Part shown: piece by piece, positions 3,659 to 57,728 of the stretch | Numbering within the stretch: position 1 is the first letter of the stretch | Layout of the letters: every line of letters starts with the position of its first letter | From: Phycisphaerae bacterium | GTDB taxonomy: Bacteria; Planctomycetota; Phycisphaerae; Phycisphaerales; UBA1924 | Direction: 5' to 3' | Length of the DNA stretch: 64,000 nucleotides | Assembly (NCBI GenBank): GCA_014192545.1 | Contig: BJHL01000004.1 | Span: 62,001 to 126,000, forward strand | Position numbers and translations under genes: made by a program | Notes under the pieces: model-generated | Database searches by the model: none | The model's input: the letters and a program-made list of their open reading frames with translations, nothing else | What the model was told of the DNA's origin: nothing

Positions 3659-3670
3659 AAGAGGCGGGAG

Positions 3671-3750
3671 TACCGAAGTACCGAAGTACCGAAGTACCGA
3701 AGTACCGAAGTACCGAAGTACCGAAGTACCGAAGTACCGAAGTACCGAAG
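3671..3750 (+). repeat. Ten perfect tandem copies of an 8-bp unit
   Basis: The unit TACCGAAG is repeated exactly ten times (80 bp) starting 13 bases after the metK stop. A pyrimidine-rich array of ACTTCGTC-type units lies about 90 bases further on (3837-3887), in opposite sense, with the terminator between them. It is one of several facing micro-repeat arrays in this window. It is too short per unit and lacks spacers, so it is not a CRISPR. Confidence 0.95.
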
Positions 3751-5267: not shown

Positions 5268-6404
5268 ATGCTGCTTCGCAACGTCTTCGCCGCGTCACTT
5301 GCTCTCACTGCCACCTTCGCAATCGCGCAAGATGGTGCCGCTCCCGCGCCGGTGCCGCCCGTTGTGCCCAGTACAACTAACACACCAACAGGCAAACCAA
5401 CAAGCCCATCAACCGACGCAACATCCGCGCCAGCCGCAGCACCATTCACCACCGCCGACGAAGTCGTCGCCGCCTTCGAAACACGCGGCAACGCACTCTC
5501 CGACGCCGAATTCGCCGCCGCTGCGCCGCTCATCGATGCAGCCGCGACCGCTGATTCGTCTGCCGCCAAGTGGAAGTACGCCAAAGCCGTCCTCGCCGCA
5601 CATGCACGCGATTTCAAAGTCGCCCGCAACCTGATGCGCGAAGTAGTCAAGGCCGAAACCGAAAGCGCCGTCTACCACATGACGCACGCTGGCTACACGT
5701 TCATGTCCATCAACGATGCCGGCACTCTCGATCAGATGAGTCTCGCCGAAGAAGGTCGTGATGCGTACATCGAAGCTCTCCGCATCGACTCCACGCTCAT
5801 CGAACCCCGCATCGGCCTCGCCGAGTTCTACATCCAAGCCCCCGGCATCGCAGGCGGCAGTTGGAAAAAAGCCAACGAGCAAGCCCAGGCTCTGATCGAT
5901 CTGCCGGATGGCCGCGGCCAGTTCTACGGCTACATGATGAAAGCCCGCATCGCCGCTGAGCGTGATCGCTGGAAGGAAATGAGCGAGAACTTCACGCTAG
6001 CCGAAACCGCGCAAGGCGAAGAAGCCAGCCCGTTTGTCGCGATGATCTCGCACGCCAACGCACTGCTCGATAAGAAAGAAGACGCCAAAGCCGCGTTGGT
6101 ACAAGCCGAGCGTGCCCTGCCCCTCGCCCCCGCCAACGACTACACCGCCCACGCGGTGATGGGTCGCTGCAAGCAATCGCTCAAAGATTGGCAAGGTGCC
6201 GCCGATTCATTCGCGCAGGTGCTTGCCATCAAGCCCGACGCAAAACTCAGCCGACTCGGCTACGCAACCGCTCTTGAAAAACTCGGCAAGCAAACCGAGG
6301 CCCTGCAACACTACCGCGAATTCGTCACTCGCTTCCCCAGCGATGATCTCACCGAAAAAGCCAAAGACGGAATCGCGCGTCTAAATCGCGCCGGCATTCG
6401 GTAA
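5268..6404 (+). CDS. Secreted or periplasmic TPR protein
   Basis: The 378-residue product has a signal peptide (MLLRNVFAASLALTATFAIAQ), a low-complexity Pro/Thr/Ala linker (about residues 22-60) and then helical repeats with TPR character, for example AHAVMGRCKQSLKDWQGAAD and LGYATALEKLGKQTEALQHY near the C-terminus. It is likely to act in protein-protein contacts outside the cytoplasm; no partner can be named. The frame is open far upstream, but that stretch overlaps the opposite-strand SDR gene; the ATG at 5268 gives the signal peptide. It is convergent with the BFD-like gene at 6430. Confidence 0.85.
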   Translation: MLLRNVFAASLALTATFAIAQDGAAPAPVPPVVPSTTNTPTGKPTSPSTDATSAPAAAPFTTADEVVAAFETRGNALSDAEFAAAAPLIDAAATADSSAAKWKYAKAVLAAHARDFKVARNLMREVVKAETESAVYHMTHAGYTFMSINDAGTLDQMSLAEEGRDAYIEALRIDSTLIEPRIGLAEFYIQAPGIAGGSWKKANEQAQALIDLPDGRGQFYGYMMKARIAAERDRWKEMSENFTLAETAQGEEASPFVAMISHANALLDKKEDAKAALVQAERALPLAPANDYTAHAVMGRCKQSLKDWQGAADSFAQVLAIKPDAKLSRLGYATALEKLGKQTEALQHYREFVTRFPSDDLTEKAKDGIARLNRAGIR

Positions 6405-6429: not shown

Positions 6430-6675
6430 TCACTGCTCTTGCGGCCGCCGCAAATTCGCGTCCGCCATCACGCGCTCACTCTGCACATGCGACATTACCG
6501 GCACGCGCGACTTGCCCGTCTTCACGGCTACATGGATGTAAGGTATGCACATGCCGCAGCCATACCCGGCGTTGGTTGCGTCTTGCAACTTCTCAACATC
6601 GCACCCCAGGTGCTTGCTCAATTCAAGCAACTGATTGAACGTCACATTGCGACAAATGCAGCGGTCCACGCTCAT
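6430..6675 (-). CDS. BFD-like [2Fe-2S] ferredoxin
   Basis: An 81-residue protein with the bacterioferritin-associated ferredoxin (BFD) cysteine pattern: CIC near the N-terminus and CGMC about 30 residues later (GYGCGMCIPYI), expected to hold a [2Fe-2S] cluster. The start at 6675 has a GAGGTGA ribosome binding site. It lies 28 bases after the pseudopilin gene and is the last gene of the minus-strand operon behind the cobalamin riboswitch. In that context it may supply electrons, for example for cobalamin reduction or metal release; this role is inference. The C-terminal 30 residues after the cluster are not typical. Confidence 0.85.
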   Translation of the reverse strand: MSVDRCICRNVTFNQLLELSKHLGCDVEKLQDATNAGYGCGMCIPYIHVAVKTGKSRVPVMSHVQSERVMADANLRRPQEQ

Positions 6676-6703
6676 GGCGTCACCTCGGCACACGCTTGTT
6701 TGC

Positions 6704-7600
6704 TTACCACTCGCGCCAGTCGGGCACATAATGCTCGCCCAACGCCGCTTGCGTCGCGCCGCCCACCGATCCAATGACGCCCGTGTTGCCGGCACTGAGC
6801 CACGCTTGCTCGCCCTGCACCGCTCGCACGCTGCCATCGGCGCGAGCCGTCACCGCAGCGCCCGCAATCACGCGCGACGCATTCCCGCCGTGGCGGAATG
6901 ACGTAGTTGGTGACCAATTGTTGTACCATCCCGCATTACCATCATAAAGCAAAGGCGGGTCCAGCAAAGCGCAATTTCGTAGGCCTTGCAAAGAAATCAT
7001 ACTATCGGCAAATACGAAAACAGACGTTGGCATGCGGATATCGACCACTTTTCGCCAAGGCCTTGCACCAATCACACCCGCCCAACCGGGCGTGCGCGAA
7101 GGCGTCAGGTAATACCCGTTGTATCCATAGGTACTGGTCGGTTGTTGCGCCGCTTGCGCTCTGTAAGAACCCCAAGGTTGAGCCGGACACTCAAAAACAC
7201 TCTTCTGTGTGAGATCCGCTTCCACAAAGTCCGCTATGAAACCTGCGCGATGCTCGACGCGCGTCGTCCCATCAACATCCGCGTCCACACGCCCCCACCA
7301 ATACGTGGCTCCACTCCCACCATCATCCTCGCCAAAACTCGCCGCGGGCATCGCAAAGTCGCGATACGTGTTGGCGTACATTGTCCACGCTGTAACAAGT
7401 TGCCGCTGATTGCTCAGGCACACCGTCTGCCTCGCCGTGTTTCGTGCCGCGCCCAGTGTCGGCAAAAGCAACCCCACCAGTAGCGCGATAGTCGCGAGCG
7501 TGACGAGCAACTCAATCAGCGAAAAACCGCCACGCCGACTTCGCTGCCGACGAAGATCATCACGATCACACTGCGCAATCTGCACGCTGACTCCATTCAT
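6704..7600 (-). CDS. Solitary type II pseudopilin-like protein, B12 operon
   Basis: The 298-residue protein has a class III prepilin signal RGG/FSLIELLVTLATIALLVG with Gly at -1 and Glu at +5, then an N-terminal helix and a globular domain. Near the C-terminus FRHGG followed by ARADGSV resembles the H-X9-DG motif of planctomycete secreted pseudopilins. It would be cut by a prepilin peptidase and placed in a pseudopilus or the inner membrane. Its ATG overlaps the stop of the beta-propeller gene by four bases, so the two are translationally coupled. It is not part of the main secretion locus at 43-49 kb. Confidence 0.88.
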   Translation of the reverse strand: MNGVSVQIAQCDRDDLRRQRSRRGGFSLIELLVTLATIALLVGLLLPTLGAARNTARQTVCLSNQRQLVTAWTMYANTYRDFAMPAASFGEDDGGSGATYWWGRVDADVDGTTRVEHRAGFIADFVEADLTQKSVFECPAQPWGSYRAQAAQQPTSTYGYNGYYLTPSRTPGWAGVIGARPWRKVVDIRMPTSVFVFADSMISLQGLRNCALLDPPLLYDGNAGWYNNWSPTTSFRHGGNASRVIAGAAVTARADGSVRAVQGEQAWLSAGNTGVIGSVGGATQAALGEHYVPDWREW

Positions 7601-9255
7601 CGCGCTTCCTCCATCACTCGCACTTCGTCGCTGCGCAGCAGTGCCCGCAGCGCATCTCGATCCGCGGCATTCACGCTGCCGTCACCATTTACATCTCGTG
7701 CGCCGCTGCCGGCCGCCCACGCGTACAAATCATCTATCGACCGCCGCTTGTCGCCGTTCACGTCAAACGCCGCCGGTACTCGTCCAAATGCCACCAGCCC
7801 GCCAACACCCACGCTGTACATGTTGGGCCCCGCAAGCGCCACGCTTCCACCCGCCAGCGTTGACTGCTGCACCACAAATCCCGCTTGCACAGGCGTACGC
7901 GTTGGATCAATCACGCTCAGTGAGCTGCCACTTGCAATCGTCGTCCCCGCTGCCTGAATCGTCGGCACCACCAGCAGCGTCTGCCCACCAAACATACTCG
8001 CCGCAGGTTGCGCGTTGTAGCCGCTCAATCGCAGATACTCGCTTACATCAAATCGCCCATCACCATCGAGATCAACCCACGTATCGCTCGCCGTGTTCCA
8101 CAATGTCGCGCTGCTGCCCAGCGACGCATCAAGCCACAGCAGACTCGGCACACTGCCAAACCCGCTGATGCCCGTCGCCAGCGCAACGCGCCCGCTCGCC
8201 AGCACAATCGGATTCGCGTTCGTTCGATTCGTCGACGTCTCACCCAGCAACGCGCCGCTTCGTGCATCCAGCCGCACCGTGTTCGCACTCGTGAGCCCAC
8301 CACTAAACGCGTACGAACTCGCAAAGACTTCAAGTCCGCCTGATGGCGTCACCGCCAGCGTGCAACCACCAAAAAAGCCCTGCAAACGTGTGTTACTAAA
8401 CGCCCACGCCGCCGCTGGCCCAGTGCTCGCCTTCGCATCAAACGCCGCAATCGTCCCCGCCGTCACGCCGGCTTCGCCGATGGTCGCAACCACAACCAAG
8501 TCATTGCCACCAAGCCGCCGAGGCATCATTGCCGGCGTGTTGCCGCTGGTGTTGCCAAGAGGCACACTCCAAACAACCTCACCAGGCTGCCACGGATTCC
8601 GTATCGCATCAAACCCGTCAAGATTGATGCACACCAGCTCACCCGCAACCGGCCCCGGACTAAACGTCGTCACGAACACGCGATCGCTCGCACCAAAATC
8701 ATCCGTCACCAGCGGACTCGCATTCACCACACTCTGCGGCAACACCACCGACCACACCGCCGCACCACTGCCAACATCCAACGCAGCAATCGTGTTCCCA
8801 GCCGCGACAATCACCGTGCCATTGCCCGCATCAATCGCCAGCGACGACTGACTCTCAAGCACGGGCTCTTGCGCCAGTGCTCGTCGCCACACAATCGCTC
8901 CAGTGTCTCGCGAAACACAGAACACATAAAACACCCGCACCTGCCCCACCGCTTGCGTACTGCCAACTGCAAATACGCGCGAAGCATCAACCACAGGCGA
9001 CTGCTGCGCCAGCCACGCAATCGCCAATCCATTGTCACTCGTGAGCGTCCACGCAGGCGTTGCCACATCCGCCCGCGCATGCCGAGACACCGCATTGCGG
9101 GCATTGCCACCCGCAAACGTCAGCCACGCCCCCGCCGGGTCACTCGCCTGCGTACTCATTTGCGCAGTAACATCGCGCGCGGCGACCAACACGCTCGCGC
9201 CGCACGCCAATCCAACCAGAAGTTGCATTGAACACTTTCTCAAACCCCAGCGCAA
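7597..9255 (-). CDS. Secreted PQQ-type beta-propeller protein with C-terminal dockerin
   Basis: The 552-residue protein has a signal peptide, then repeats of the PQQ/WD-like type (DASRVFAVGSTQAV, RDTGAIVWRRAL, IAALDVGSGAAVWSV) forming a predicted beta-propeller. The last 60 residues hold two calcium-binding loops, DVNGDKRRSIDDLY and DVNGDGSVNAADRDAL, typical of type I dockerin. The TTG at 9255 gives an n-region with Arg and Lys and has GAAGGTGA just ahead; the ATG at 9228 would lose those charges, so the TTG is preferred but not certain. It is the second gene of the riboswitch operon. A B12-related binding role is inferred only from context. Confidence 0.82.
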   Translation of the reverse strand: MRWGLRKCSMQLLVGLACGASVLVAARDVTAQMSTQASDPAGAWLTFAGGNARNAVSRHARADVATPAWTLTSDNGLAIAWLAQQSPVVDASRVFAVGSTQAVGQVRVFYVFCVSRDTGAIVWRRALAQEPVLESQSSLAIDAGNGTVIVAAGNTIAALDVGSGAAVWSVVLPQSVVNASPLVTDDFGASDRVFVTTFSPGPVAGELVCINLDGFDAIRNPWQPGEVVWSVPLGNTSGNTPAMMPRRLGGNDLVVVATIGEAGVTAGTIAAFDAKASTGPAAAWAFSNTRLQGFFGGCTLAVTPSGGLEVFASSYAFSGGLTSANTVRLDARSGALLGETSTNRTNANPIVLASGRVALATGISGFGSVPSLLWLDASLGSSATLWNTASDTWVDLDGDGRFDVSEYLRLSGYNAQPAASMFGGQTLLVVPTIQAAGTTIASGSSLSVIDPTRTPVQAGFVVQQSTLAGGSVALAGPNMYSVGVGGLVAFGRVPAAFDVNGDKRRSIDDLYAWAAGSGARDVNGDGSVNAADRDALRALLRSDEVRVMEEAR

Positions 9256-9340
9256 TCACCTTCGCAACCACGCCGAGAAGCTCTCAAAGCACACAGGTCC
9301 GAATCACTCTTCTCTCGGTGCCCTCTGTGTTAAACCTGCC

Positions 9341-10168
9341 TCACCGCCGCCGCAGCAGCAGCATCGCCGCACCAGCCAACAGCGCCGCAGCTCCGCCCGG
9401 CCCAGGCACCGCTGTCACATCGCTTAGCGCATCAATCTCCACATCCACGCTGCTGCCACTCGGCACACTCACGCGCACAAACGAAATCTGCGAAAGTCCC
9501 AGCGCGCCAATATCAACACCCAGCCCGCCGCCCGAGCCGTCATAGCCCGCAATAAGTTCGCTCAGCGTCTTGTTCTGCCACGCAAAATTCGGATTCACCG
9601 GCTTGGTGAAGTCACTCTGCACACTGCCTGCCGGCCCACCAAACGCACTGGTCTCATCCAAATACCCCAGCGTCGGAAACAACCCATCCGCCCCGCTCGC
9701 AGCAACAAACCACAGCACACCATCAGCCGACACCTCAACGATGCCACCATCGCTGCTGATGCCCGTCGTACGCGGCGTCACAAAATCACTCGTCGTAAAA
9801 AACGAATTCCCAAACACCAGCAAGTCCACGCCAAACGGATTCAGCGGATCATTCACCACCGGCTCATCAAACCGCACCGTCAGCGAGCCGCCCGCGCCAA
9901 TCGACACAAACTCATCAAACCCATACGCACCCGCAAACGGCGTCACACTCCCCGGAAACGACCCAAACGGCGAGTCCTCACCCGTCACGCGCTCCGGACT
10001 TCCAAGCACGCTCAGAGGATTCAAATAGTCGCCGCTCGCATTACTGCCCTGCGTGTAATTCACCACGCCATCCGCCCACGGATTGCTACCTGCGAACGCC
10101 GACCCGCTCGCAATCACAAGCCCCAACAAACCAATCCTCCCCAAACCAACACACAAAGAACCCACCAT
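9341..10168 (-). CDS. PEP-CTERM-like anchored cell-surface protein, first gene behind the B12 riboswitch
   Basis: The 275-residue protein has an N-terminal signal peptide (cleavage near AFAGSNPW), a beta-rich body with FGVDLLVFGNSFF and SIGAGGSLTVRFDEPV, and a C-terminal tail VPGPGGAAALLAGAAMLLLRRR that fits PEP-CTERM sorting: a Pro-containing motif, a transmembrane helix and Arg residues. Surface proteins of this body type occur, as far as I recall, near cobalamin riboswitches in other planctomycetes and verrucomicrobia; that needs a database check. GAGAGG lies eight bases ahead of the ATG. It is separated from the riboswitch by about 240 bases and starts the four-gene operon. Confidence 0.82.
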   Translation of the reverse strand: MVGSLCVGLGRIGLLGLVIASGSAFAGSNPWADGVVNYTQGSNASGDYLNPLSVLGSPERVTGEDSPFGSFPGSVTPFAGAYGFDEFVSIGAGGSLTVRFDEPVVNDPLNPFGVDLLVFGNSFFTTSDFVTPRTTGISSDGGIVEVSADGVLWFVAASGADGLFPTLGYLDETSAFGGPAGSVQSDFTKPVNPNFAWQNKTLSELIAGYDGSGGGLGVDIGALGLSQISFVRVSVPSGSSVDVEIDALSDVTAVPGPGGAAALLAGAAMLLLRRR

Positions 10169-10238
10169 CTCTCCAAAACCTCTCGCTCATCTCTCGACAA
10201 GCTCGCACGTCCCGTTTCGCGCAGGACAGCCTTCCAAC

Positions 10239-10257
10239 GAGAACCATCAGGGTTCTC
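10239..10257 (-). other. Short hairpin in the leader between riboswitch and first gene
   Basis: GAGAACC and GGTTCTC form a perfect 7-bp stem with a 5-nt loop about 70 bases upstream of the first operon gene. There is no T-run after it on the minus strand, so it is not a plain terminator. It could belong to the expression platform of the riboswitch. Confidence 0.35.
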
Positions 10258-10411
10258 ACCGGGGCCCAATCTGCACGCGCAGACGTATCGCGAAGAAAGC
10301 GGACGACACAGGGCGAAATGCACGGAAATGCGTGCGCACTCGCCACGGTCTTCAGCCCCGGCATCTGCCAGCACGCAGCCAGCACACACCATTCGCGAGG
10401 GCCCGAACCAT

Positions 10412-10650
10412 GTCGCTGGCAGGTCTTCCGGCTTGGAGCTTCGCAAAGATCAACCTTCCCAGCAGCACAGGCTTCTCAGCCCATCGCTACCAGTGGCCGC
10501 ATGCAACTCGGTCTCACAACCGCATCGCACACTCTGACCTTTGCGTCAACACCCCTTACGGCGGCGCGTCCGCGGTGGCTTCTCACCACACTTCCCTTTT
10601 CACCCACGCGGCACAAGTGAGGCCTGCGTCCCGTGGGCACCAATGACGCT
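10412..10650 (-). promoter_or_regulatory. Cobalamin (AdoCbl) riboswitch
   Basis: Read on the minus strand, the conserved cobalamin riboswitch blocks appear in order: GGTGCCCACGGG near 10642, GGTGAAAAGGGAA and GGTGAGAAGCCAC in the 10560-10605 part, a GCCACTG B12-box-type core near 10496, and finally AAGCCGGAAGACCTGCC ending near 10417. The last element is a near-perfect match to the family 3' signature. Length (about 235 nt) is normal for the class. It lies upstream of the minus-strand operon 10168-6430 and is expected to repress it when adenosylcobalamin is abundant. Confidence 0.93.
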
Positions 10651-10673
10651 GGAGAATAGGCGACACTAAGAGC

Positions 10674-10710: not shown

Positions 10711-10775
10711 ACGAAGTGCCAGAGTGCGAAGTGCCAGAGTGCCAAAGTGCCAAAGTGCGAAGTACGAAGTGTGAA
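10711..10775. repeat. Imperfect GAAGTGCC tandem array
   Basis: About eight imperfect units of 7-8 bp (GAAGTGCC, AGAGTGC, AAAGTGCC, GAAGTAC) lie between the cobalamin riboswitch and the dockerin-type protein gene at 10961. The unit resembles the GAAGTACC unit at 3671 and GAAGTGAC at 24127. No facing partner array is evident nearby. Apart from this array and the palindrome just before it, I see nothing in 10651-10960. Confidence 0.8.
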
Positions 10776-10960: not shown

Positions 10961-12676
10961 ATGTCTTTCTCTTCTCGCACACGTCACATCGCTCTCATCG
11001 CCGGTTCCGCAATCACCGCGAGCTGCACCCTCGCCCAAGGCACGCCCGGCCTCTGGTCGCGCGGCTTCCTCCACACGCCCGATGCCGCCACCACCCTCAC
11101 GCCCAGCGGACCAGGCCGCGTCCTCGCCAGCAGTTCCGGCGGCGGCAATCTCCTCACCTCCGTCCAATGGCCCTTCAAACTCGGCGGCATCGTCACCTGC
11201 GACACCAACAACCTCGACGCACCCGCGCCCGGCCTGCCCATCCGCAGCATCACGTCAACCTTTCACGACGGCTCAACCCAAATCGGCACACTCATCGCCC
11301 GCGGCAAGCACTTCACGGGCCGCCCGCCGATCCAGATCAATCGCACCATCGCCTGCGACTTCTCCAGCTCCGGCGCAATCGCCGTCGAGTGGCGCTGCAT
11401 TGATGAAAACGGCATCGTCCTCGCCCAAGGCATCACCAGCGGCCCCTTCCTCGAATGCGATGATCTCAGCGACTACCCGCCCAGCGATTCATCCAGCTAC
11501 GGCCTTGGAAGTGGCAAGGCCACCTTCAAAGAGTTCACCGTCACCAAGCGCACCGGTTCGGCCCGCGTCTACTCCACCACCGGCCCCGTCTTGGTCGCTG
11601 ACGTCGCCACCATCAGCTTCCGCCCCATCTGGTGCATCACTTCACCGTGCCCGGGCGATGGCCTTGGCATCAGCAACATGGACATCACCACCAGCAACCT
11701 CCCGCAACTCGAAATGGGCGACGCTGTCTGCAGTTGGTCCTGGGGCGTCTGCAACACCGGCAGCAAAGGCACCAACCGCATCACCGTGCACGGCACCGAA
11801 GGCACCAAAATCACTGAAGCTCTCGACGCCGACATGGATGACGACGGCCTGCTCGACAAAGTGCTCGGCGCAGGCGCGGTTGCTGGCATCACCGGCGGCG
11901 CAGTCGCCGGCATCGTCGTCGCTCGCCCCACACTCGCCCAAGATACCGAGCCCACCGGCCTCAGCTTCCGCAAAAACTACGTCGGCCACGTCAGCCTCAT
12001 CAAACAACGCACCGCTGCTGGCTTCGCCAGTTCCATCACCACCCAAACCGACCCGCTCACCGGCCAAATGACCATCACCCCCGACTTCTCCTCCATCGGC
12101 AGCACCGAGTGGGAAGTCACCGGCTACGGCCCAACCGGCGATGTCGTCGGCACCGCCATCGTCTGCTGTGCCTCGGGCGTCTTCAACAACCGCTGCCCCG
12201 GCAGCTACGAAAAGTGGGTCTTCTACCCACCCAACTGGTACTTCCTGGGCTGCTACACCCCAACTGAATTCATCCTCCCCGGCGGCACCGTCCTCACCGG
12301 CGTCACCAGCCTGCGCTTCGCCCCCGTCACCGGAGCCGACCTGCTCAGTGACGTCGAACAAATCGAAATCCTCGATCAGGCCCCCGACCAGCCCGACGGC
12401 ATCGCCACCCCTCTCCAAGTCGGCCTCATCGAAGTCGTCACCGCCGCCCCCGTCGGCACGCCCGCCTGCGACACCGTCGACTTCAACAACAACGGCGTCT
12501 TCCCCGAAGACCAAGATGTCGTCGACTTCTTCGATGTCCTCGCCGGCGGCAACCCCGCTACCTGCGATGCCGCCCTGGGCTGCCAAGACATCGACTTCAA
12601 CAACAACGGTGTCTTCCCCGAAGACCAAGACGTCATCGACTTCTTCAACGTCCTCGCCGGCGGCGCGTGCCCATAA
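10961..12676 (+). CDS. Exported protein with two C-terminal dockerin-like DFNNNGVFPEDQDV repeats
   Basis: The 571-residue protein has a signal peptide ending near CTLAQ and a long beta-rich region of unknown family (about residues 25-490). The last 75 residues contain two near-identical repeats, each an Asp/Asn-rich loop DFNNNGVFPEDQDV followed by a DFF helix and VLAGG, flanked by cysteines. The loop resembles the EF-hand-like calcium site of dockerins. The same repeat ends the proteins at 24274 and 56244. GGAG lies ahead of the ATG. The ligand and anchoring partner are unknown. Confidence 0.82.
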   Translation: MSFSSRTRHIALIAGSAITASCTLAQGTPGLWSRGFLHTPDAATTLTPSGPGRVLASSSGGGNLLTSVQWPFKLGGIVTCDTNNLDAPAPGLPIRSITSTFHDGSTQIGTLIARGKHFTGRPPIQINRTIACDFSSSGAIAVEWRCIDENGIVLAQGITSGPFLECDDLSDYPPSDSSSYGLGSGKATFKEFTVTKRTGSARVYSTTGPVLVADVATISFRPIWCITSPCPGDGLGISNMDITTSNLPQLEMGDAVCSWSWGVCNTGSKGTNRITVHGTEGTKITEALDADMDDDGLLDKVLGAGAVAGITGGAVAGIVVARPTLAQDTEPTGLSFRKNYVGHVSLIKQRTAAGFASSITTQTDPLTGQMTITPDFSSIGSTEWEVTGYGPTGDVVGTAIVCCASGVFNNRCPGSYEKWVFYPPNWYFLGCYTPTEFILPGGTVLTGVTSLRFAPVTGADLLSDVEQIEILDQAPDQPDGIATPLQVGLIEVVTAAPVGTPACDTVDFNNNGVFPEDQDVVDFFDVLAGGNPATCDAALGCQDIDFNNNGVFPEDQDVIDFFNVLAGGACP

Positions 12677-24133: not shown

Positions 24134-24250
24134 GAAGAAGTAACGAAGTGACGAAGTGACGGAGTGATGAACGCACCTGCTCACCCACTCACCCACTCAC
24201 CCACTCACCCACTCACCCACTCACCTCCTCACCCACTCACCCGCTCACCC
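24127..24250. repeat. Facing 8-bp tandem arrays (GAAGTGAC and ACTCACCC)
   Basis: Five imperfect GAAGTGAC-type units (24127-24170) are followed by about nine copies of ACTCACCC (24180-24250). The second array is roughly complementary to the purine-rich first (read GGGTGAGT on the other strand). The arrays begin inside the last codons of the pseudopilin gene. Confidence 0.85.
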
Positions 24251-44142: not shown

Positions 44143-44648
44143 TTCTGCAACCTCACGCGGGGGAAGGCGGCGATGCGGAGTTCGAAGTCGTCGATGACGA
44201 GGCGGACGACGAAGCGTTGTGTGGTTTGCGGGGTCGCGAGTGTGCTGGTGGTGCCGTCGGCGGCGAGGTAGGTGATTTCGAAGGCGGTGACGTTGCTGGC
44301 AAGAATGTCTTGCGTGCCGGGGGCGGATTGGTAGAGGAGGTCGGTGCCGGAGAGCGCGAGGGCGCGGCCGTCGGTGAAGGTGATAGAGGTTGCGGTGGCG
44401 GTGGTGATGGCGAGGGCGCCGGACATGGTGGCGGGAGGGGTGTCACGCAGCAGGCGGACGATGCGATCGACGGCGTAGGCGTTGGATTCGCTGACGCGGC
44501 GGAGGCGGTCGCTGTTGGCGGCGTTGGTGGTGACGCCTTGCATGATGGGCAAGGTGCTGGCAGCGATGATACCCATGATGGTGATGACCACGAGGGCTTC
44601 GAGCAAGCTGAAGGCGCGGCGGGAGATTGGTTGGGAGCGAGTGGGCAT
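44139..44648 (-). CDS. Pseudopilin, GspJ/PilW-like
   Basis: The 169-residue protein has a prepilin signal RRAFSLLEALVVITIMGIIAAS with Glu at +5 and Ala at -1, and the body has alternating beta-strands (TSITFTDGRALALSG, AFEITYLAADG) as in GspJ. It is placed at the J position between the GspI-like and PilX-like genes. It should be processed by a prepilin peptidase not present in the window. Confidence 0.75.
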   Translation of the reverse strand: MPTRSQPISRRAFSLLEALVVITIMGIIAASTLPIMQGVTTNAANSDRLRRVSESNAYAVDRIVRLLRDTPPATMSGALAITTATATSITFTDGRALALSGTDLLYQSAPGTQDILASNVTAFEITYLAADGTTSTLATPQTTQRFVVRLVIDDFELRIAAFPRVRLQK

Positions 44649-45121
44649 TAGAAGTCCCCCACGAGCGTTGAGAAATTGATGTTGATGGGAGCAGTGCCGG
44701 CGCGAGGTGCGGTGACGGTGACGGTCACGATGCGGAAGATGTCTTGGGCGGCGTTGCCGGTTGCGGAGCCTGACGCGGCGACGAGCGGGCTGGCTTGGAT
44801 GGTGTAAGTAAATCCCAATGCTTGGTATTGATTGGTGAGTGGTTCGGCGCGGGCGGTGAATTCGGTGGTGTACGTGGGCATGTTGGCGAGTGCGGCGAAG
44901 CCCAGCTTGGGGTCGCTGCTCGCAACGTCGGCGAGGACGAATTCGACGAGGCTCTGGGCGAGAGTGGCGGCGCGCTGGGCTTGGACGGCGTCTTCGCGGC
45001 GCTGGGCGGCGGAATCAAGGAAGAGGACGGCGGGCGGGACAGTCACGGCGATGATCACAATCACGGCGATGGCTTCGATGAGCGTGAAGGCACGGCGGGA
45101 GTTGGTGAAGGTGAAGTTCAT
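44648..45121 (-). CDS. Pseudopilin, GspI/PilV-like
   Basis: The 157-residue protein has RRAFTLIEAIAVIVIIAVTVPPAVLFL with Glu at +5, and a globular C-terminal part of the GspI/PilV type. The ATG at 45121 overlaps the GspH-like stop by four bases; its own stop overlaps the start of the next gene (TAATG). It is an internal operon gene. Confidence 0.75.
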   Translation of the reverse strand: MNFTFTNSRRAFTLIEAIAVIVIIAVTVPPAVLFLDSAAQRREDAVQAQRAATLAQSLVEFVLADVASSDPKLGFAALANMPTYTTEFTARAEPLTNQYQALGFTYTIQASPLVAASGSATGNAAQDIFRIVTVTVTAPRAGTAPININFSTLVGDF

Positions 45122-45651
45122 TGGCGCTGCACCGATCCTGTGATGCGGCGGACGGTGATGGTGAAAGTGTTGTCGATGCGGATGGACATGTCGGTGGTCC
45201 AGGGGCCGATGCGCGTGCCTGATGTGTCGCGGAGTTCGGGAGTGCCGTCGATGCCGAACCAAGCGGTAGTGGTGGTTGTGGTATCGCCTGCGCCGTCGAT
45301 GAGGCTGGTGATCCATGGATCGCGGCGGCCTTGGTCGGGGCGGGTTGAGCCGCGAGTGGAGCCGTCGGGGGCGAGGACGGGGGTTGGAGATGTGCCGAGG
45401 GAGTTGATGGTCAAGATGCGCATGTCGTTGGCCGAGAACTCGACGGCTGTGGGGCGACCGGTGGCGAGGGCGAGGGAGCGAGCGAGCAGCAGGGTGCGCT
45501 CGACTTCTTGCGCGGAGTCGACGCGGCGGGCGTTGCGGAGCAGGCTAAAGGCTGGGGTAGCAGTCGCGGCGATGATGCCGATGATGACGACCACGACCAT
45601 CGTTTCGAGAAACGAGAAGGCGCGGCGGGAATGGACGGATGCGCGGGGCAT
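45118..45651 (-). CDS. Pseudopilin, GspH-like
   Basis: The 177-residue protein has SRRAFSFLETMVVVVIIGIIAATATPAFSLL with Glu at +5, followed by RNARRVDSAQEVERTLLLARSLALATGRPTAVEF, the typical GspH helix. The order G-H-I-J-K is preserved in this cluster. It overlaps both neighbours (TAATG and ATGA). Confidence 0.83.
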   Translation of the reverse strand: MPRASVHSRRAFSFLETMVVVVIIGIIAATATPAFSLLRNARRVDSAQEVERTLLLARSLALATGRPTAVEFSANDMRILTINSLGTSPTPVLAPDGSTRGSTRPDQGRRDPWITSLIDGAGDTTTTTTAWFGIDGTPELRDTSGTRIGPWTTDMSIRIDNTFTITVRRITGSVQRQ

Positions 45652-46154
45652 TAGTGTTCGTTGGCATTGAGGGCGTTGCCGCTGGCGTTGGTACCTGCGG
45701 GGTCGGAGGCGTTGGCGTAAAAGATGGCGGCGGGAGGGATGGCGGAGTTATCGACGTAATAGTTCCAGCCGTAGCTCTGGGGGCTGACGACGGAGCGCGA
45801 GTTGGCCTGCGTGAGGGAGACAAGTTGGACGGTGTTGAGGCCGTTGTAGGGATTTGGGGGGAAGTCGCCTTGGACGACGGTGTTGGGCGTGGTGAGTTGG
45901 TTGAGGGTGGGGTAAGGCGGAGTGCCGGCGAGGACGGCGTTGGCGCGGTAGCCGGCGATGGAAGCGCGGATGCCGCCCAGATTGGCTTTGAGTGAGCTGG
46001 CGCGGGCATCTTGGGTTGCGCTGCCGAATTGCGGGATGACGATAGCTGCGAGGATGCCGATGATGACGACGACGATCATCACTTCGAGGAAGGTGAAGGC
46101 TCGGCGGAGGGCGGAGGCGCTGGGCGGAAGATTGGCAAGGCGATGTGCGATCAT
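45651..46154 (-). CDS. Major pseudopilin, GspG-like
   Basis: The 167-residue protein has RRAFTFLEVMIVVVIIGILAAIVIPQFGSATQDARASSLKANL, the GspG class signal and helix, and a C-terminal SYGWNYYVDN region similar to the beta-part of GspG with a possible calcium site. It probably forms the shaft of the pseudopilus. The ATG at 46154 is preferred over the longer frame. It heads the pseudopilin part of the operon, 130 bases after the GspF gene. Confidence 0.85.
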   Translation of the reverse strand: MIAHRLANLPPSASALRRAFTFLEVMIVVVIIGILAAIVIPQFGSATQDARASSLKANLGGIRASIAGYRANAVLAGTPPYPTLNQLTTPNTVVQGDFPPNPYNGLNTVQLVSLTQANSRSVVSPQSYGWNYYVDNSAIPPAAIFYANASDPAGTNASGNALNANEH

Positions 46155-46284
46155 CTCAAACTCCGATATGCGGCTGCGATGTGCAAGGCGGCTCAAACGA
46201 ATATGCGCTGCACAGGCGGAATGGTTTGCCTGAATTGCCAGGGCGGGGGATTATCTGCACGAACGAGTTTTATCCTTGATTGAC

Positions 46285-47487
46285 TTATCGTTGAATCTTG
46301 GCCATTTGCCACATGGGGAGGAAGACGCTGAGGGCGACGAGCAAGACGATGCCTGCGAGGGCGATGGTCATGATGGGCTCGATGATGGTGTTGACATTCT
46401 TGGTGAGGTTGGAGGCTTCGCGATCGAAGTGGCGAGAGACGATTTCGCAGCAGCGAGAGAGTTCTTTAGCGTCTTTACCGGCACCGATCATGCGTTTGGC
46501 AAAGGGGGGCAAATATCGCGTGCGCTGCAGGGTGTCGATGAGGCGCTCGCCTTGACGGAGATTTTCACTTATGGCGGCGCAGTCGTTGACGAAGATGGGC
46601 CGACCTGTGGAACGGCCGGCGATTTCGATGGCTTCGGTGACGTCAAGGCCGCTGGCGAGAGAGATGCCCAGCACGCGCGAGAAGCGGGCGGCGGCCATGG
46701 TACTGATGACGTCGCAGACGTAGGGGATTTTGAGAAGGGCAGCTTCGAGAACGAGGCGGCCTTTGGGGTTTCGCCAGGTGAGAGCAAGCGTGATGAGTAC
46801 GGTGAAGAGGCCACCCAAGTAAGCCCACCAGTAACCTTGCATGGATGCGCCGACGGCTTGGACGATCTTGGTGGCGAGGGGAAGCTCGCGATTTCCTGAG
46901 GCGAATGTTGCGGCAAACTTGGGAACGACGAAACCGACAATGACGGTGAGGGCTGCGCCGACCATGCCCAAGACGATGACGGGGTAAGCGAGGGCGCGGC
47001 GCAGTTGCGAGCCCGTTTCGACTTGTTTTTCGAGCATTTCGACGAGGTGGCTGGTGACGGCTTGCAGGTTACCGCTTTTTTCGGCAGAGCGCATGGTTTC
47101 GATGTAGACGTCGCCGAAGGTGGAGCGGTATTTTTCCATCGCGGTGGTGATGGTCTGGCCGCTTTCGATCATGGTGGCGATGTCGCGGATCATGGCGGCG
47201 AGTTCGGGCTTGCGCTCGTGCTCGGCGATAGCGATGAGGCCGCGGTCGAGAGGGATTTGGGCTTCGACGAGGACGGCGAGTTCGCGCGTGAGGTTGGCAA
47301 CGTCGGTGAGTTTGACGCGGCTGAAGCTGAGAGCGGCGCGCTCTCGCATGGGCGAGAGCACCAGCGGCGTGAGGGCCGAGGCGGTGAGTTTGCGGTAGGC
47401 TTCGGCTTCATCGAGAGCGCGAATGGAGCCTTTGGTTTGGATCCCTTGCGCGTCGATGGCTTCGTAGTGGTAGGTGGTGACGCTCAT
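46285..47487 (-). CDS. gspF: Type II secretion/type IV pilus inner-membrane protein, GspF/PilC
   Basis: The 400-residue protein has two T2SSF cytoplasmic domains with membrane segments between (PVIVLGMVGAALTVIVGF; WAYLGGLFTVLITLALTW; IALAGIVLLVALSVFLPMW) and motifs SGNLQAVTSHLVEMLEKQ and GLDVTEAIEIAGRSTG. It is the platform protein around which the ATPase drives assembly. Its ATG overlaps the gspE stop by four bases. Naming as GspF or PilC cannot be separated by sequence alone here. Confidence 0.92.
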   Translation of the reverse strand: MSVTTYHYEAIDAQGIQTKGSIRALDEAEAYRKLTASALTPLVLSPMRERAALSFSRVKLTDVANLTRELAVLVEAQIPLDRGLIAIAEHERKPELAAMIRDIATMIESGQTITTAMEKYRSTFGDVYIETMRSAEKSGNLQAVTSHLVEMLEKQVETGSQLRRALAYPVIVLGMVGAALTVIVGFVVPKFAATFASGNRELPLATKIVQAVGASMQGYWWAYLGGLFTVLITLALTWRNPKGRLVLEAALLKIPYVCDVISTMAAARFSRVLGISLASGLDVTEAIEIAGRSTGRPIFVNDCAAISENLRQGERLIDTLQRTRYLPPFAKRMIGAGKDAKELSRCCEIVSRHFDREASNLTKNVNTIIEPIMTIALAGIVLLVALSVFLPMWQMAKIQR

Positions 47488-49193
47488 GCGGCGCGCTCCT
47501 GGATTTGATTCGAGGCAGTTTGATCGACGGCGGTTTGGGTTGCTTCGTCGTCGAGGAACTGCTGGGAGAAACCCATGATTTCGTCGAGCGAGGTACGGCC
47601 GGAGGCGGCGACTTCGGCACCGTTGTGGAAGAGTGAGCGGAAACCGTCAGCACGGGCGGCATCGATGATGTCGGTGGTCGATGCTTTGTATTCGATCAGC
47701 GGGCGAACGCGCGGGGTGATGCGGAGCATTTCGAAGATGGGCAAGCGGCCGCGGAAGCCGGTGCGTTTGCAGGCATCGCAACCGGCGTGCGAGCGGAACT
47801 CGCCGTTGCGGAACTCCTCGGGGACGCGGCGGACGAGATTGCAATCAGTTTCGAGCACTGAGCACTTGGTGCAGAGCTGGCGGACCAGTCGCTGCGAGAT
47901 AGCAGCGAGCAAGGTGGAGCCAACCATGTAGGGCGGGACGCCCATGTTGATGAGGCGTTCGACGGTGCCCACAGCGTCGTTGGTGTGCAGGGTGGAGAGG
48001 ACCAAGTGGCCTGTCATGGCGGCTTGGGCGGCGATTTTGGCGGTTTCTTCGTCGCGGATTTCACCCACGAGGATGACGTCGGGATCTTGACGCAGGAAGC
48101 TGCGCAGTGCGCTGGCGAAGGTGAGTCCAATTTCGGGATGGGCCTGCACTTGGCGGATCATGGGCAGGCGAATTTCGACGGGATCTTCGATCGTCATGAT
48201 GTTGACGTCGGGCTTGTTGATCACGTTGAGGGCGGTGTAGAGGGTGGTGGTTTTACCGCTGCCAGTTGGTCCGGTGACGAGGATGATGCCGTGGGGTCGT
48301 TCGATGAGGTCGCTGAACCACGTTGTCATTTGCGGGCTCATGCCCAGGCTGGCGATGTCGCCGATGCGGGTTGCGCTGCGGAGCAGGCGCATGACGACGT
48401 TTTCGCCGTGGATGGTGGGGATGAGCGAGAGGCGGACGTCGATATTTTCGCCTTTGTGGCGGAAGCGGAACTTGCCGTCTTGCGGTTTGCGGGTTTGCGT
48501 CAGGTCGAGTTTGGCCATGACCTTCAGTCGCTGCACGAGGGCTTCGTGCATGCTGCGCTGGGGGCTTTGCTGCGGGGCGAGCACGCCATCGACGCGGTAG
48601 CGCAAGACGAGGTCGCGTTCTTCGGGATTGATGTGGACGTCGCTGGCGGCGGCGTCGGCGGCACCGGCGAGAATCTGGTTGACGGCGGCGACGACGGGTT
48701 CATCACCTGTGGTGAGGGTTTGCTCGGCGGTGTCGTCGGCTTTAGCGTCATCGCTGCGTGCGAGGCTGTACGCGCGGGTGATGAGGGCACGGAGTTGTTC
48801 AGCGTCGGCGACGACGGGATCGACATCGCAGCGGAGCAACTGGCGGATTTGGTCGATGGCTTGCAGATTGAGCGGATCAAGCATCGCGATGGTGGCGACG
48901 CCGTCGAGAATGAAGAGTGGGAAGGCAACGAGGCGCTCGGCGACGGCACGGGGGACGAGGCGGGTGTTGCGGAAGTCGATTTCGTAGTGCGTGAGATCAA
49001 CGAAGGGATATTCGCAGATTTTGGCTTTGGCGATGGCGAGGCGGCGCGTGGTGGCGATGCCGAGTGAGACCATGGAGTCGAGAAGATCGCCGCCCGTACC
49101 CATCGCGTGTTCAGTGGCACGGCGAAGATCGGCCTCGGTGATGAGGCCGTCTGCGAGCAGCGTGCGGACGATGAAGTTGCGAGAGTCGAGCAC
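47484..49193 (-). CDS. gspE: Assembly ATPase GspE/PilB
   Basis: The 569-residue hexameric ATPase has an N-terminal MshEN/T2SSE-N region, Walker A GPTGSGKTTT, Walker B-like ILVGEIRDEETAKIA, the Asp box and His box (HLVLSTLHTNDAVG), and a zinc-binding four-Cys region CTKCSVLETDC and CDACKRTGF. It powers pilus or pseudopilus assembly. The start is GTG at 49193 with AGGA eight bases ahead. Next to the PilZ gene. Confidence 0.95.
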   Translation of the reverse strand: MLDSRNFIVRTLLADGLITEADLRRATEHAMGTGGDLLDSMVSLGIATTRRLAIAKAKICEYPFVDLTHYEIDFRNTRLVPRAVAERLVAFPLFILDGVATIAMLDPLNLQAIDQIRQLLRCDVDPVVADAEQLRALITRAYSLARSDDAKADDTAEQTLTTGDEPVVAAVNQILAGAADAAASDVHINPEERDLVLRYRVDGVLAPQQSPQRSMHEALVQRLKVMAKLDLTQTRKPQDGKFRFRHKGENIDVRLSLIPTIHGENVVMRLLRSATRIGDIASLGMSPQMTTWFSDLIERPHGIILVTGPTGSGKTTTLYTALNVINKPDVNIMTIEDPVEIRLPMIRQVQAHPEIGLTFASALRSFLRQDPDVILVGEIRDEETAKIAAQAAMTGHLVLSTLHTNDAVGTVERLINMGVPPYMVGSTLLAAISQRLVRQLCTKCSVLETDCNLVRRVPEEFRNGEFRSHAGCDACKRTGFRGRLPIFEMLRITPRVRPLIEYKASTTDIIDAARADGFRSLFHNGAEVAASGRTSLDEIMGFSQQFLDDEATQTAVDQTASNQIQERAA

Positions 49194-56243: not shown

Positions 56244-57728
56244 ATGCCCACCGCCCATCTGCCCACACAATCCGCACACACGTCACGATCAATCGCTCAC
56301 GCGGCCGCGTCAGGAACTGACGCGACCGCGTCAATGACCGAAGCGACCGCGTCAGGAACCGACGCGAACGCGTCAATGACTCGTGCGAACGCATTAGCCA
56401 TCCACGCGGACACATCAAGGATGCACGCGAGCGCATCAGCAAACGACGGGCCTGCATCGGTCGTTGCGGCCGCCATGCGATCGGTTCGGGCGGCGATGGT
56501 GATGGCCGCGACGTCGACTGTCGCGATGCTTGCCGCCCAGGTACGAGCCCAGTCAGAACTGATCATCATCGAACCGCCGCCAGGGTTCGCCGAAACAATC
56601 GGCATGGACATCAACGACTGGGGAGAAGTGCTGGTGCAGCGCGTGCGCGGGTCGGCGTCGACCGACCCGGTGCTGCAATGGGACGCTGTGTGGGAAAACG
56701 GAAACTGGCGACCTCTGGCGATGCCGGGCACAATTCAGTCCGCGTGCCCGCTCAATCCGCAATTTCCCCCGCAACTCAGTAACTGGGATGCGATTGTTGG
56801 CTCCGCTATCAACAACGCAGGAACGGTCGCGGGCGCATTTTCTAATTGTCAGCGGTTTCCCGCGACATGGTCGCGAACTGGAGCCATAACACGATATCGA
56901 CTCAGTAGCGAACCGTCATGTAATGTCCCGTACGCCCGTGATGCAATGCTTCTGGAGATTGGCGACGACGGGTCGGTCGCCGGGCGCCACTACAACTGTG
57001 GTTTCTTTCGTGGGGCGGGCTATGTGACTCCGAGCGGCAGCGATATCTTGCGCATTCCGCCGACGACGGGCGGTTTCAACTACTTCATGGTCGATGTGAA
57101 CGCCGCAGGCACTGTCGTCGGAAACGTCGGGACAAGTGCTGGCCAGGAGCGTGGTCAACTTTGGACATCATCAACGCAAGTGATTGACCTTGGCGCCAAC
57201 GTTGGCGTCCGAGCCATCAACGACGCCGGCACTGTTCTGTTGGATATCGGCACCTGGCGAAATGGCATCATCACCCCACTGGACCCGCCGGGAACACCAG
57301 GGGATTTGTCACTGCGCTTTCCCGTCGACATCAATGATCTCGGATCCATTCTTTCCAACGGGGCGGTTTTGATCGCAGGTGAACGATACAACTTGGCCGA
57401 CCTTGGCATGGCGCGTGCTGGATTGGAGCAATTTGAACCGCGACGCATCAACAACAGGCACTGGATCGTTGGCACGGTGCGTGTGAATGGCTGCTTCACG
57501 TGCCGCCGTGCGTTTGTCTTGAAGATTGCCGTGCCCTGCGACGACATCGACTTCAACCAGAACGGCGTGTTTCCTGAAGACCAAGACGTTGTCGATTTCT
57601 TTGACGTCCTCGCCGGCGGTTCGTGCCCCACCTGCAACGACATCGACTTCAACAACAACGGCGTCTTCCCCGAGGATCAAGATGTGATTGACTTCTTCAA
57701 CGTCTTGGCGGGCGGCACTTGTCCGTAA
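56244..57728 (+). CDS. HAF-repeat exported protein with a heptad-repeat N-terminus and dockerin-like tail
   Basis: The 494-residue protein has an N-terminal stretch with seven copies of a 7-residue unit (ASGTDAT, ASMTEAT and variants), then a signal-like helix (AAMVMAATSTVAMLAAQVRAQ), HAF-type repeats (INNAGTVAGAF, VNAAGTVVGNV, INDAGTVL) and two DFNNN dockerin-like repeats. The ATG at 56244 has AAGGGG eight bases ahead. An ATG at 56475 would drop the heptads and give a normal signal peptide. The role is probably surface adhesion or capture; inferred. Confidence 0.75.
   Translation: MPTAHLPTQSAHTSRSIAHAAASGTDATASMTEATASGTDANASMTRANALAIHADTSRMHASASANDGPASVVAAAMRSVRAAMVMAATSTVAMLAAQVRAQSELIIIEPPPGFAETIGMDINDWGEVLVQRVRGSASTDPVLQWDAVWENGNWRPLAMPGTIQSACPLNPQFPPQLSNWDAIVGSAINNAGTVAGAFSNCQRFPATWSRTGAITRYRLSSEPSCNVPYARDAMLLEIGDDGSVAGRHYNCGFFRGAGYVTPSGSDILRIPPTTGGFNYFMVDVNAAGTVVGNVGTSAGQERGQLWTSSTQVIDLGANVGVRAINDAGTVLLDIGTWRNGIITPLDPPGTPGDLSLRFPVDINDLGSILSNGAVLIAGERYNLADLGMARAGLEQFEPRRINNRHWIVGTVRVNGCFTCRRAFVLKIAVPCDDIDFNQNGVFPEDQDVVDFFDVLAGGSCPTCNDIDFNNNGVFPEDQDVIDFFNVLAGGTCP
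56307..56453 (+). repeat. Seven tandem 21-bp units in the N-terminal coding region
   Basis: The 21-bp unit encodes a 7-residue repeat. Units 1 and 3 are almost identical (GCGTCAGGAAC...GACGCG) and units 2 and 4 likewise, so a 42-bp higher-order period is visible. The last three units have decayed. The DNA of the first units is palindromic (GCGTCAGGAACTGACGC). Confidence 0.85.

Follow-up and report, generated by a model that had tools for sequence, protein, structure and literature searches.

A cobalamin riboswitch in Phycisphaerales heads an operon encoding a distant BtuH relative and a pseudopilin, in a genome without a detectable TonB-dependent receptor

Vitamin B12 (~1.36 kDa) exceeds what ordinary porins pass, and its textbook route into Gram-negative bacteria consists of BtuB and TonB. 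A different principle operates in type IV pilus-type DNA uptake, where the ligand is bound on a fibre and drawn through the outer membrane. The closest described B12-binding proteins are those of Bacteroides, among which BtuH2 holds the phosphate of cobalamin through Asn399 and the ribose through Gln333, and BT1490 joins a beta-propeller and a BtuH domain in one protein (PMC8941943). Pili-like fibres of planctomycetes bind dextran, porins pass only ~600 Da, and the route of large molecules across the planctomycete outer membrane is described as unknown (PMC5394234). Here, we analyze a four-gene operon headed by a cobalamin riboswitch in a 64,000-nucleotide stretch (hereafter, the window; contig BJHL01000004.1, positions 62,001 to 126,000) of a Phycisphaerae bacterium. 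The operon represents a new form of B12 scavenging under riboswitch control, in which a known capture family is combined with new partners in a genome that lacks a TonB receptor. Among the papers searched, none combined planctomycetes with cobalamin riboswitches, and those on planctomycetes with BtuB and B12, or on pilins with B12 and riboswitches, did not seem, judged by title and abstract, to report this arrangement.

The operon is composed as follows (window coordinates):

10401-10659, minus strand: cobalamin riboswitch aptamer (RF00174), full length by covariance model
10169-10400, minus strand: leader between the aptamer and the first start codon
9341-10168, minus strand: gene 1, BtuH-family predicted surface protein, 275 amino acids (aa), by profile and structure model
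7597-9228, minus strand: gene 2, beta-propeller of the BamB/PQQ type ending in a dockerin, 543 aa, by Pfam
6704-7600, minus strand: gene 3, DUF1559-type pseudopilin, 298 aa, by Pfam
6430-6675, minus strand: gene 4, BFD-like [2Fe-2S] ferredoxin, 81 aa, by cysteines and a borderline Fer2_BFD match

A first-pass annotation, made from the sequence alone, had proposed a clear cobalamin riboswitch at the head of a four-gene minus-strand operon, and this proposal holds: the RF00174 match scores 74.5 bits against a gathering score of 31.5 (E of 1.6e-16, model positions 1-189), retains the conserved GGGAA, GCCACUG, and AGACCUGCC elements, and is the only one of its kind in the 3.66 Mb assembly. No consensus intrinsic terminator was found in the leader; control by B12 would presumably be of the ligand-dependent OFF type. 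Genes 2 and 3 share four bases (ATGA, 7597-7600), the coding regions of genes 1 and 2 are 112 bases apart and those of genes 3 and 4 are 28 bases apart, and the 3′ end of the operon abuts a convergent TPR-like gene on the plus strand (stop at 6404). Perfect or near-perfect tandem repeats of 8 bases occur in or near intergenic regions elsewhere in the window (3669-3750 and 24180-24250) as well as directly upstream of the riboswitch (10712-10763).

Homologues from loci with a second gene layout (type B, described below) connect gene 1, distantly, to BtuH, the domain that binds B12 in Bacteroides BtuH2 and BtuG1. The gene-1 family profile matches BtuG1 (8BLW, within its BtuH part) at an E of 1.8e-32 and BtuH2 (7BIZ) at an E of 1.3e-26; the profile of window-type sequences matches that of type-B sequences at an E of 8e-32, and the latter matches 8BLW at an E of 1.5e-34 and 7BIZ at an E of 5e-28. 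When the AlphaFold2 model of the gene-1 protein (predicted local distance difference test [pLDDT] score of 90.5) was re-ranked against 989 chains with VIA-align, 7BIZ came first (Z of 12.0; 137 aligned residues, 28% identical) and 8BLW second (Z of 11.7), followed by CBM32 modules (9.8), which agrees with the beta-sandwich fold of BtuH. Asn121, which aligns with the phosphate-holding Asn399 of BtuH2 (numbering by alignment), is invariant in all 62 sequences. No Pfam family matched gene 1, and none of the PEP-CTERM models reached its cut-off, but the N-terminus is signal-like and the C-terminal helix (residues 257-273) followed by RRR resembles a PEP-CTERM anchor; the protein is predicted to sit at the surface and to bind B12. 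The first-pass annotation had seen no known B12 synthesis or BtuB/BtuCDF gene in the operon. Such genes are indeed lacking, but, given the distant BtuH homology of gene 1, one relative of an established B12 protein is present after all.

Of the identities that had been suggested for the four products (a PEP-CTERM-like protein, a PQQ propeller with dockerin, a pseudopilin, and a BFD-like ferredoxin), the propeller with dockerin and the pseudopilin are borne out by Pfam, while the ferredoxin is a borderline Pfam match with a fitting cysteine pattern. Gene 2 contains PQQ_2 and Dockerin_1 domains above the Pfam cut-offs (start at ATG 9228, with TTG 9255 as a possible alternative), and the propeller matches BamB, with no match to the BtuG propeller seen; type-B propellers weakly match SLP/YncE propellers. 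Gene 3 passes the N_methyl cut-off (25.4 bits versus 21.2) and that of DUF1559/SBP_bac_10, and its model has a long helix at residues 28-78, with PilA4 as the top structural match at a low Z of 5.2; a second structure comparison found no clear relative of the pilin head, an absence that proves nothing. Gene 4 scores 25.4 bits with Fer2_BFD, slightly below the cut-off of 26, has no visible signal peptide, and carries the cysteines C6xC8...C40xxC43, whose CxC...CxxC pattern is kept in the consensus of 35 relatives.

To place the operon among its relatives, we searched 81 genomes of the same order with RF00174, fetched ~16 kb around the matches, and mapped the four operon proteins onto these loci with iterative profiles, since greedy open reading frame (ORF) calling in GC-rich loci often picked antisense frames. 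A riboswitch was found in 74 of the 81 genomes, nearly always singly. Both the riboswitch and gene 1 were found in 69 genomes (in G053, on different contigs) and neither in five; the riboswitch alone was found in five (G028, G056, G060, G069, and G073, of which G056, G069, and G073 were searched for gene 1 only near the riboswitch) and gene 1 alone in two. Thus, gene-1 homologues are not mostly free of riboswitches, 69 of 71 genomes with gene 1 carrying one, nor is a btuB always near the operon. The gene set lies downstream of the riboswitch in most of 78 related loci, far more often than expected by chance, and comes in three layouts: type A, that of the window (BtuH-like protein, large propeller, pilin, and BFD); type B (small YncE/SLP-like propeller with dockerin or PEP-CTERM, BtuH-like protein, pilin, and BFD); and a shorter one (BtuH-like protein, pilin, and BFD). 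The pilin adjoins gene 1 in 65 of 71 genomes, and five of the six misses are at contig ends.

The association extends beyond the order. A scan of named public genomes recovered 69 gene-1 loci, mostly from Phycisphaerae. The others include two cultured isolates, Lacipirellula limnantheis I41 and Botrimarina colliarenosi Pla108, each with the riboswitch, the pilin, and a BtuH-like gene, as well as records under the labels Hydrogenedentota, Armatimonadetes, Nitrospiraceae, and Spirochaetales (for metagenomes, such labels may be wrong). RF00174 was present at 24 of the 28 named gene-1 loci tested, among them Lacipirellulaceae, Hydrogenedentota, Armatimonadetes, and Spirochaetales records, and in three of the four remaining loci the contig begins less than 1 kb from gene 1. 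Operon pilins are strongly clustered in the pilin tree but do not form a single clade; one well-supported group unites planctomycete, Armatimonadota, Nitrospirota-labelled, and Hydrogenedentota operon pilins, and several joins on long branches are unsure. A separate observation concerns an exported family (‘GxGxNxAALVIDWD’ with a PEP-CTERM end) that lies under cobalamin riboswitches beside a pilin (L144:4796-5758 and L161:5186-5998) and is the first gene of the riboswitch loci in G068 (L046), G056 (L071), and G069 (L095). This ‘ALVIDW’ protein had no match in the PDB and no informative match in Pfam, and the family is a candidate for a further B12-binding surface protein.

The genome in question appears to need B12 and to be unable to make it. 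Its B12-dependent proteins include MetH and a GTPase fusion carrying a mutase-type B12 domain; CbiC, without which neither known pathway can build the corrin ring, was found in none of the 81 genomes, this one included. Because B12 enzymes are present and CbiC is absent, B12 most likely comes from outside the cell. Absences in this assembly (~94% complete) were tested family by family: it contains no TonB receptor Plug domain and no TonB C-terminal domain (TonB_C), which are present in nine and four, respectively, of the 49 genomes of its family, and the same searches do find matches in Escherichia coli, Caulobacter, and Bacteroides. Of the 45 family members that carry gene 1, 37 lack Plug and 33 lack both Plug and TonB. 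A FecCD permease (218 bits) is encoded, as are four secretins, several PilB/PilT/type II secretion system (T2SS) ATPases, and proteins accounting for 56 N-methylation (pilin-like) matches. The earlier idea of an outer-surface B12 capture system is therefore supported, by the sole riboswitch, the BtuH homology, the B12 enzymes, and the missing CbiC, TonB receptor, and TonB.

Two other features of the window touch on pilins and exported proteins. A pilus or secretion gene cluster at positions 44556-48710 (minus strand) contains genes for several prepilin-like proteins and for an ATPase of the PilB/GspE type. The C-terminal motif DIDFNNNGVFPEDQDVIDFFNVLAGG recurs on exported proteins (window 57535-57715 and the end of the ORF at 10961-12676 on the plus strand) and also beside other pilins of this genome (L247 and L259); it is perhaps a genome-specific sorting or dockerin tag.

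Relatives with BtuB-type receptors are informative about the place that the operon occupies. The G060 genome lacks gene 1; its riboswitch is followed by a receptor gene that among NCBIfam models fits TonB-B12 best, with a score of 270 bits that falls short of the equivalog cut-off. Here, in a single case, BtuB occupies the position that the operon usually takes. In G073 (L072), the pilin has a riboswitch at its head, and a second cobalamin riboswitch comes next, with BtuB, ExbB, ExbD, and TonB, so that the two presumed outer-membrane routes adjoin each other. Finally, a Spirochaetales-labelled locus (L205:2370-8013) combines a cobalamin riboswitch, a BtuH-like gene, a BtuB-like receptor, a YncE propeller, and TonB in a single run, which places the gene-1 family in B12 uptake.

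Our best explanation for these data is a B12 acquisition operon whose expression the riboswitch would permit under cobalamin shortage. Exported and surface-anchored, the BtuH-like protein and the beta-propeller would bind cobamides; the pseudopilin, built by pilus or type II secretion machinery, most likely would form or cap a fibre that holds these capture proteins; and the fibre would bring the ligand across the outer membrane, through a secretin or crateriform pore, in place of the missing BtuB/TonB route. The FecCD/BtuC-type ATP-binding cassette permease, if B12 is its substrate, would then carry the ligand over the inner membrane, where the cytosolic BFD-like ferredoxin probably serves as the electron source for reduction of incoming cob(III)alamin. 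We prefer the fibre model, with moderate confidence, because secretins, ATPases, and pilins are present and planctomycete fibres bind dextran, and we put the probability of the explanation as a whole at about 0.5; a role for the pilin in passing B12 through the outer membrane is plausible, but the pilin could just as well aid in exporting or displaying the capture proteins. That the operon serves B12-regulated capture without a TonB receptor, whatever the pilin does, is very probable. The general form of the proposal, in which Phycisphaerales and some other lineages import B12 free of TonB receptors on a riboswitch-induced pilin fibre with BtuH-type proteins (a pilus-based replacement of BtuB), is tentative, its odds falling somewhat short of even.

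Several observations weigh against this explanation. On the side of capture, the link to BtuH has two steps, from window type to type B and from type B to BtuH: the window-type profile alone gave no match in the PDB, single-sequence PDB searches with gene 1, as with gene 2, returned nothing useful, and plain Foldseek of the gene-1 model yielded no match below an E of 1e-3 and only weak jelly-roll/discoidin ones. The equivalent of Gln333 (in a PAPGQ motif), kept in most type-B proteins, is absent from the window protein, this glutamine being a site residue not known as a requirement for membership in the BtuH family. On the side of transport, G015 and the named locus L151 possess gene 1 and the ferredoxin but truly lack the pilin; eight of the 45 gene-1 genomes in the family do have a TonB receptor, of unassigned ligand; and the FecCD permease is as near FhuB as BtuC (the two models score alike, both below their cut-offs) and has no adjoining BtuF or BtuD. 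Because the genome holds so many pilin-like matches, a pilin neighbor in one genome is weak evidence, and because a few of the 20 other pilins inspected there also adjoin surface-protein genes, the pairing is a wider habit of this genome. The first-pass view of a pseudopilin used instead of a TonB-type receptor accordingly stands in part: it fits with the pilin as the most constant partner, with the existing ATPases and secretins, and with G060, where the riboswitch heads BtuB instead, but the loci without a pilin, the eight genomes with a receptor, and the chance that the pilin serves export all count against it. The claim of a new system needs a similar correction, since the capture protein comes from a known B12-binding family whereas the partners and the lack of a TonB receptor are new.

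The strongest competing explanation accepts capture but has the pseudopilin only export or display the BtuH-like protein and propeller, like a cargo-linked T2SS pseudopilin, with B12 entering by another channel. In its favor, pseudopilins belong by family to secretion machinery, T2SS-like ATPases and secretins are encoded in the genome, a few of its other pilins likewise adjoin surface-protein genes, and G015 and L151 retain gene 1 without a pilin; yet a dedicated, riboswitch-controlled pilin persists in G056, G069, and G073, whose riboswitch loci have no gene 1, and no gene for an alternative channel is linked to the operon. We regard this explanation as possible, if doubtful. The encoded surface proteins, dockerin, and pilin, along with a gene-1 fold that is also near carbohydrate-binding CBM32 (Z up to 9.8), might instead indicate an operon for sticking to B12 producers or particles under B12 starvation rather than for import. 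This is improbable, given that the best sequence and structure matches are to the B12-binding BtuH2 and BtuG1 and not to CBM32, that the phosphate-binding Asn is invariant, and that the Spirochaetales homologue sits in a BtuB/TonB locus.

Equally improbable is a divergent or missed BtuB that the operon merely assists, as in Bacteroides: the incomplete assembly, the Plug-domain proteins in nine family members, and the adjoining pilin and riboswitch-headed BtuB-ExbB-ExbD-TonB run of G073 would allow for it, but Plug and TonB are both at zero in this genome, 37 and 33 of the 45 gene-1 genomes lack Plug or both domains, and the control genomes are positive. That the riboswitch controls a single gene and the remainder are passengers is scarcely credible; the ties between genes 1 and 2 and between genes 3 and 4 are weak in a single genome (gaps of 112 and 28 bases), and pilin-like matches are many (56 genome-wide), but the set is conserved, in different gene orders, in more than one family and under the labels of other phyla.

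Most sampled members of one family in a planctomycete order thus appear to need B12 and to lack CbiC and a TonB receptor, and in them a cobalamin riboswitch, usually the only one in the genome, heads genes for a BtuH relative and a pseudopilin. The uptake of large nutrients by such bacteria becomes a directly testable question, the abundant and unexplained DUF1559 pilins are tied to a likely ligand, and the BtuH family is extended beyond gut Bacteroidetes.

Among known systems, gene 1 most resembles BtuH2 (BT1956, 7BIZ) and the BtuH domain of BtuG1/BtuGH (BT1490, 8BLW) of Bacteroides thetaiotaomicron, by profile, by best structure match, and by its Asn399 equivalent, and the loci share a cobalamin riboswitch and a beta-propeller partner (fused into one protein in BT1490). 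Whereas the Bacteroides BtuH proteins are lipoproteins encoded beside BtuB, BtuG, and BtuCDF, the predicted anchor here is PEP-CTERM-like or a dockerin, BtuB and TonB are lacking, the operon includes a pseudopilin and a ferredoxin, and the equivalent of Gln333 is no longer present in the window type. BtuG is likewise a propeller of the cell surface, encoded in a B12 locus under a riboswitch, and type-B propellers weakly match SLP/YncE and the Spirochaetales partner matches YNCE; however, BtuG is a seven-bladed, YncE-type surface lipoprotein, and the window propeller is of the BamB/PQQ type. BtuB-TonB-ExbBD import occupies the same place in the riboswitch regulon in G060 and G073, whereas the genome of the window has neither a TonB-dependent receptor nor TonB. 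In manner of working, the proposed system compares with type IV pilus-type DNA uptake, in which a ligand on a pilus-type fibre is brought through the outer membrane, and with planctomycete uptake of dextran, which is bound on fibres (PMC5394234). Unlike DNA or dextran uptake, the system proposed here would have a DUF1559-type pilin and, as its probable ligand, a small cofactor.

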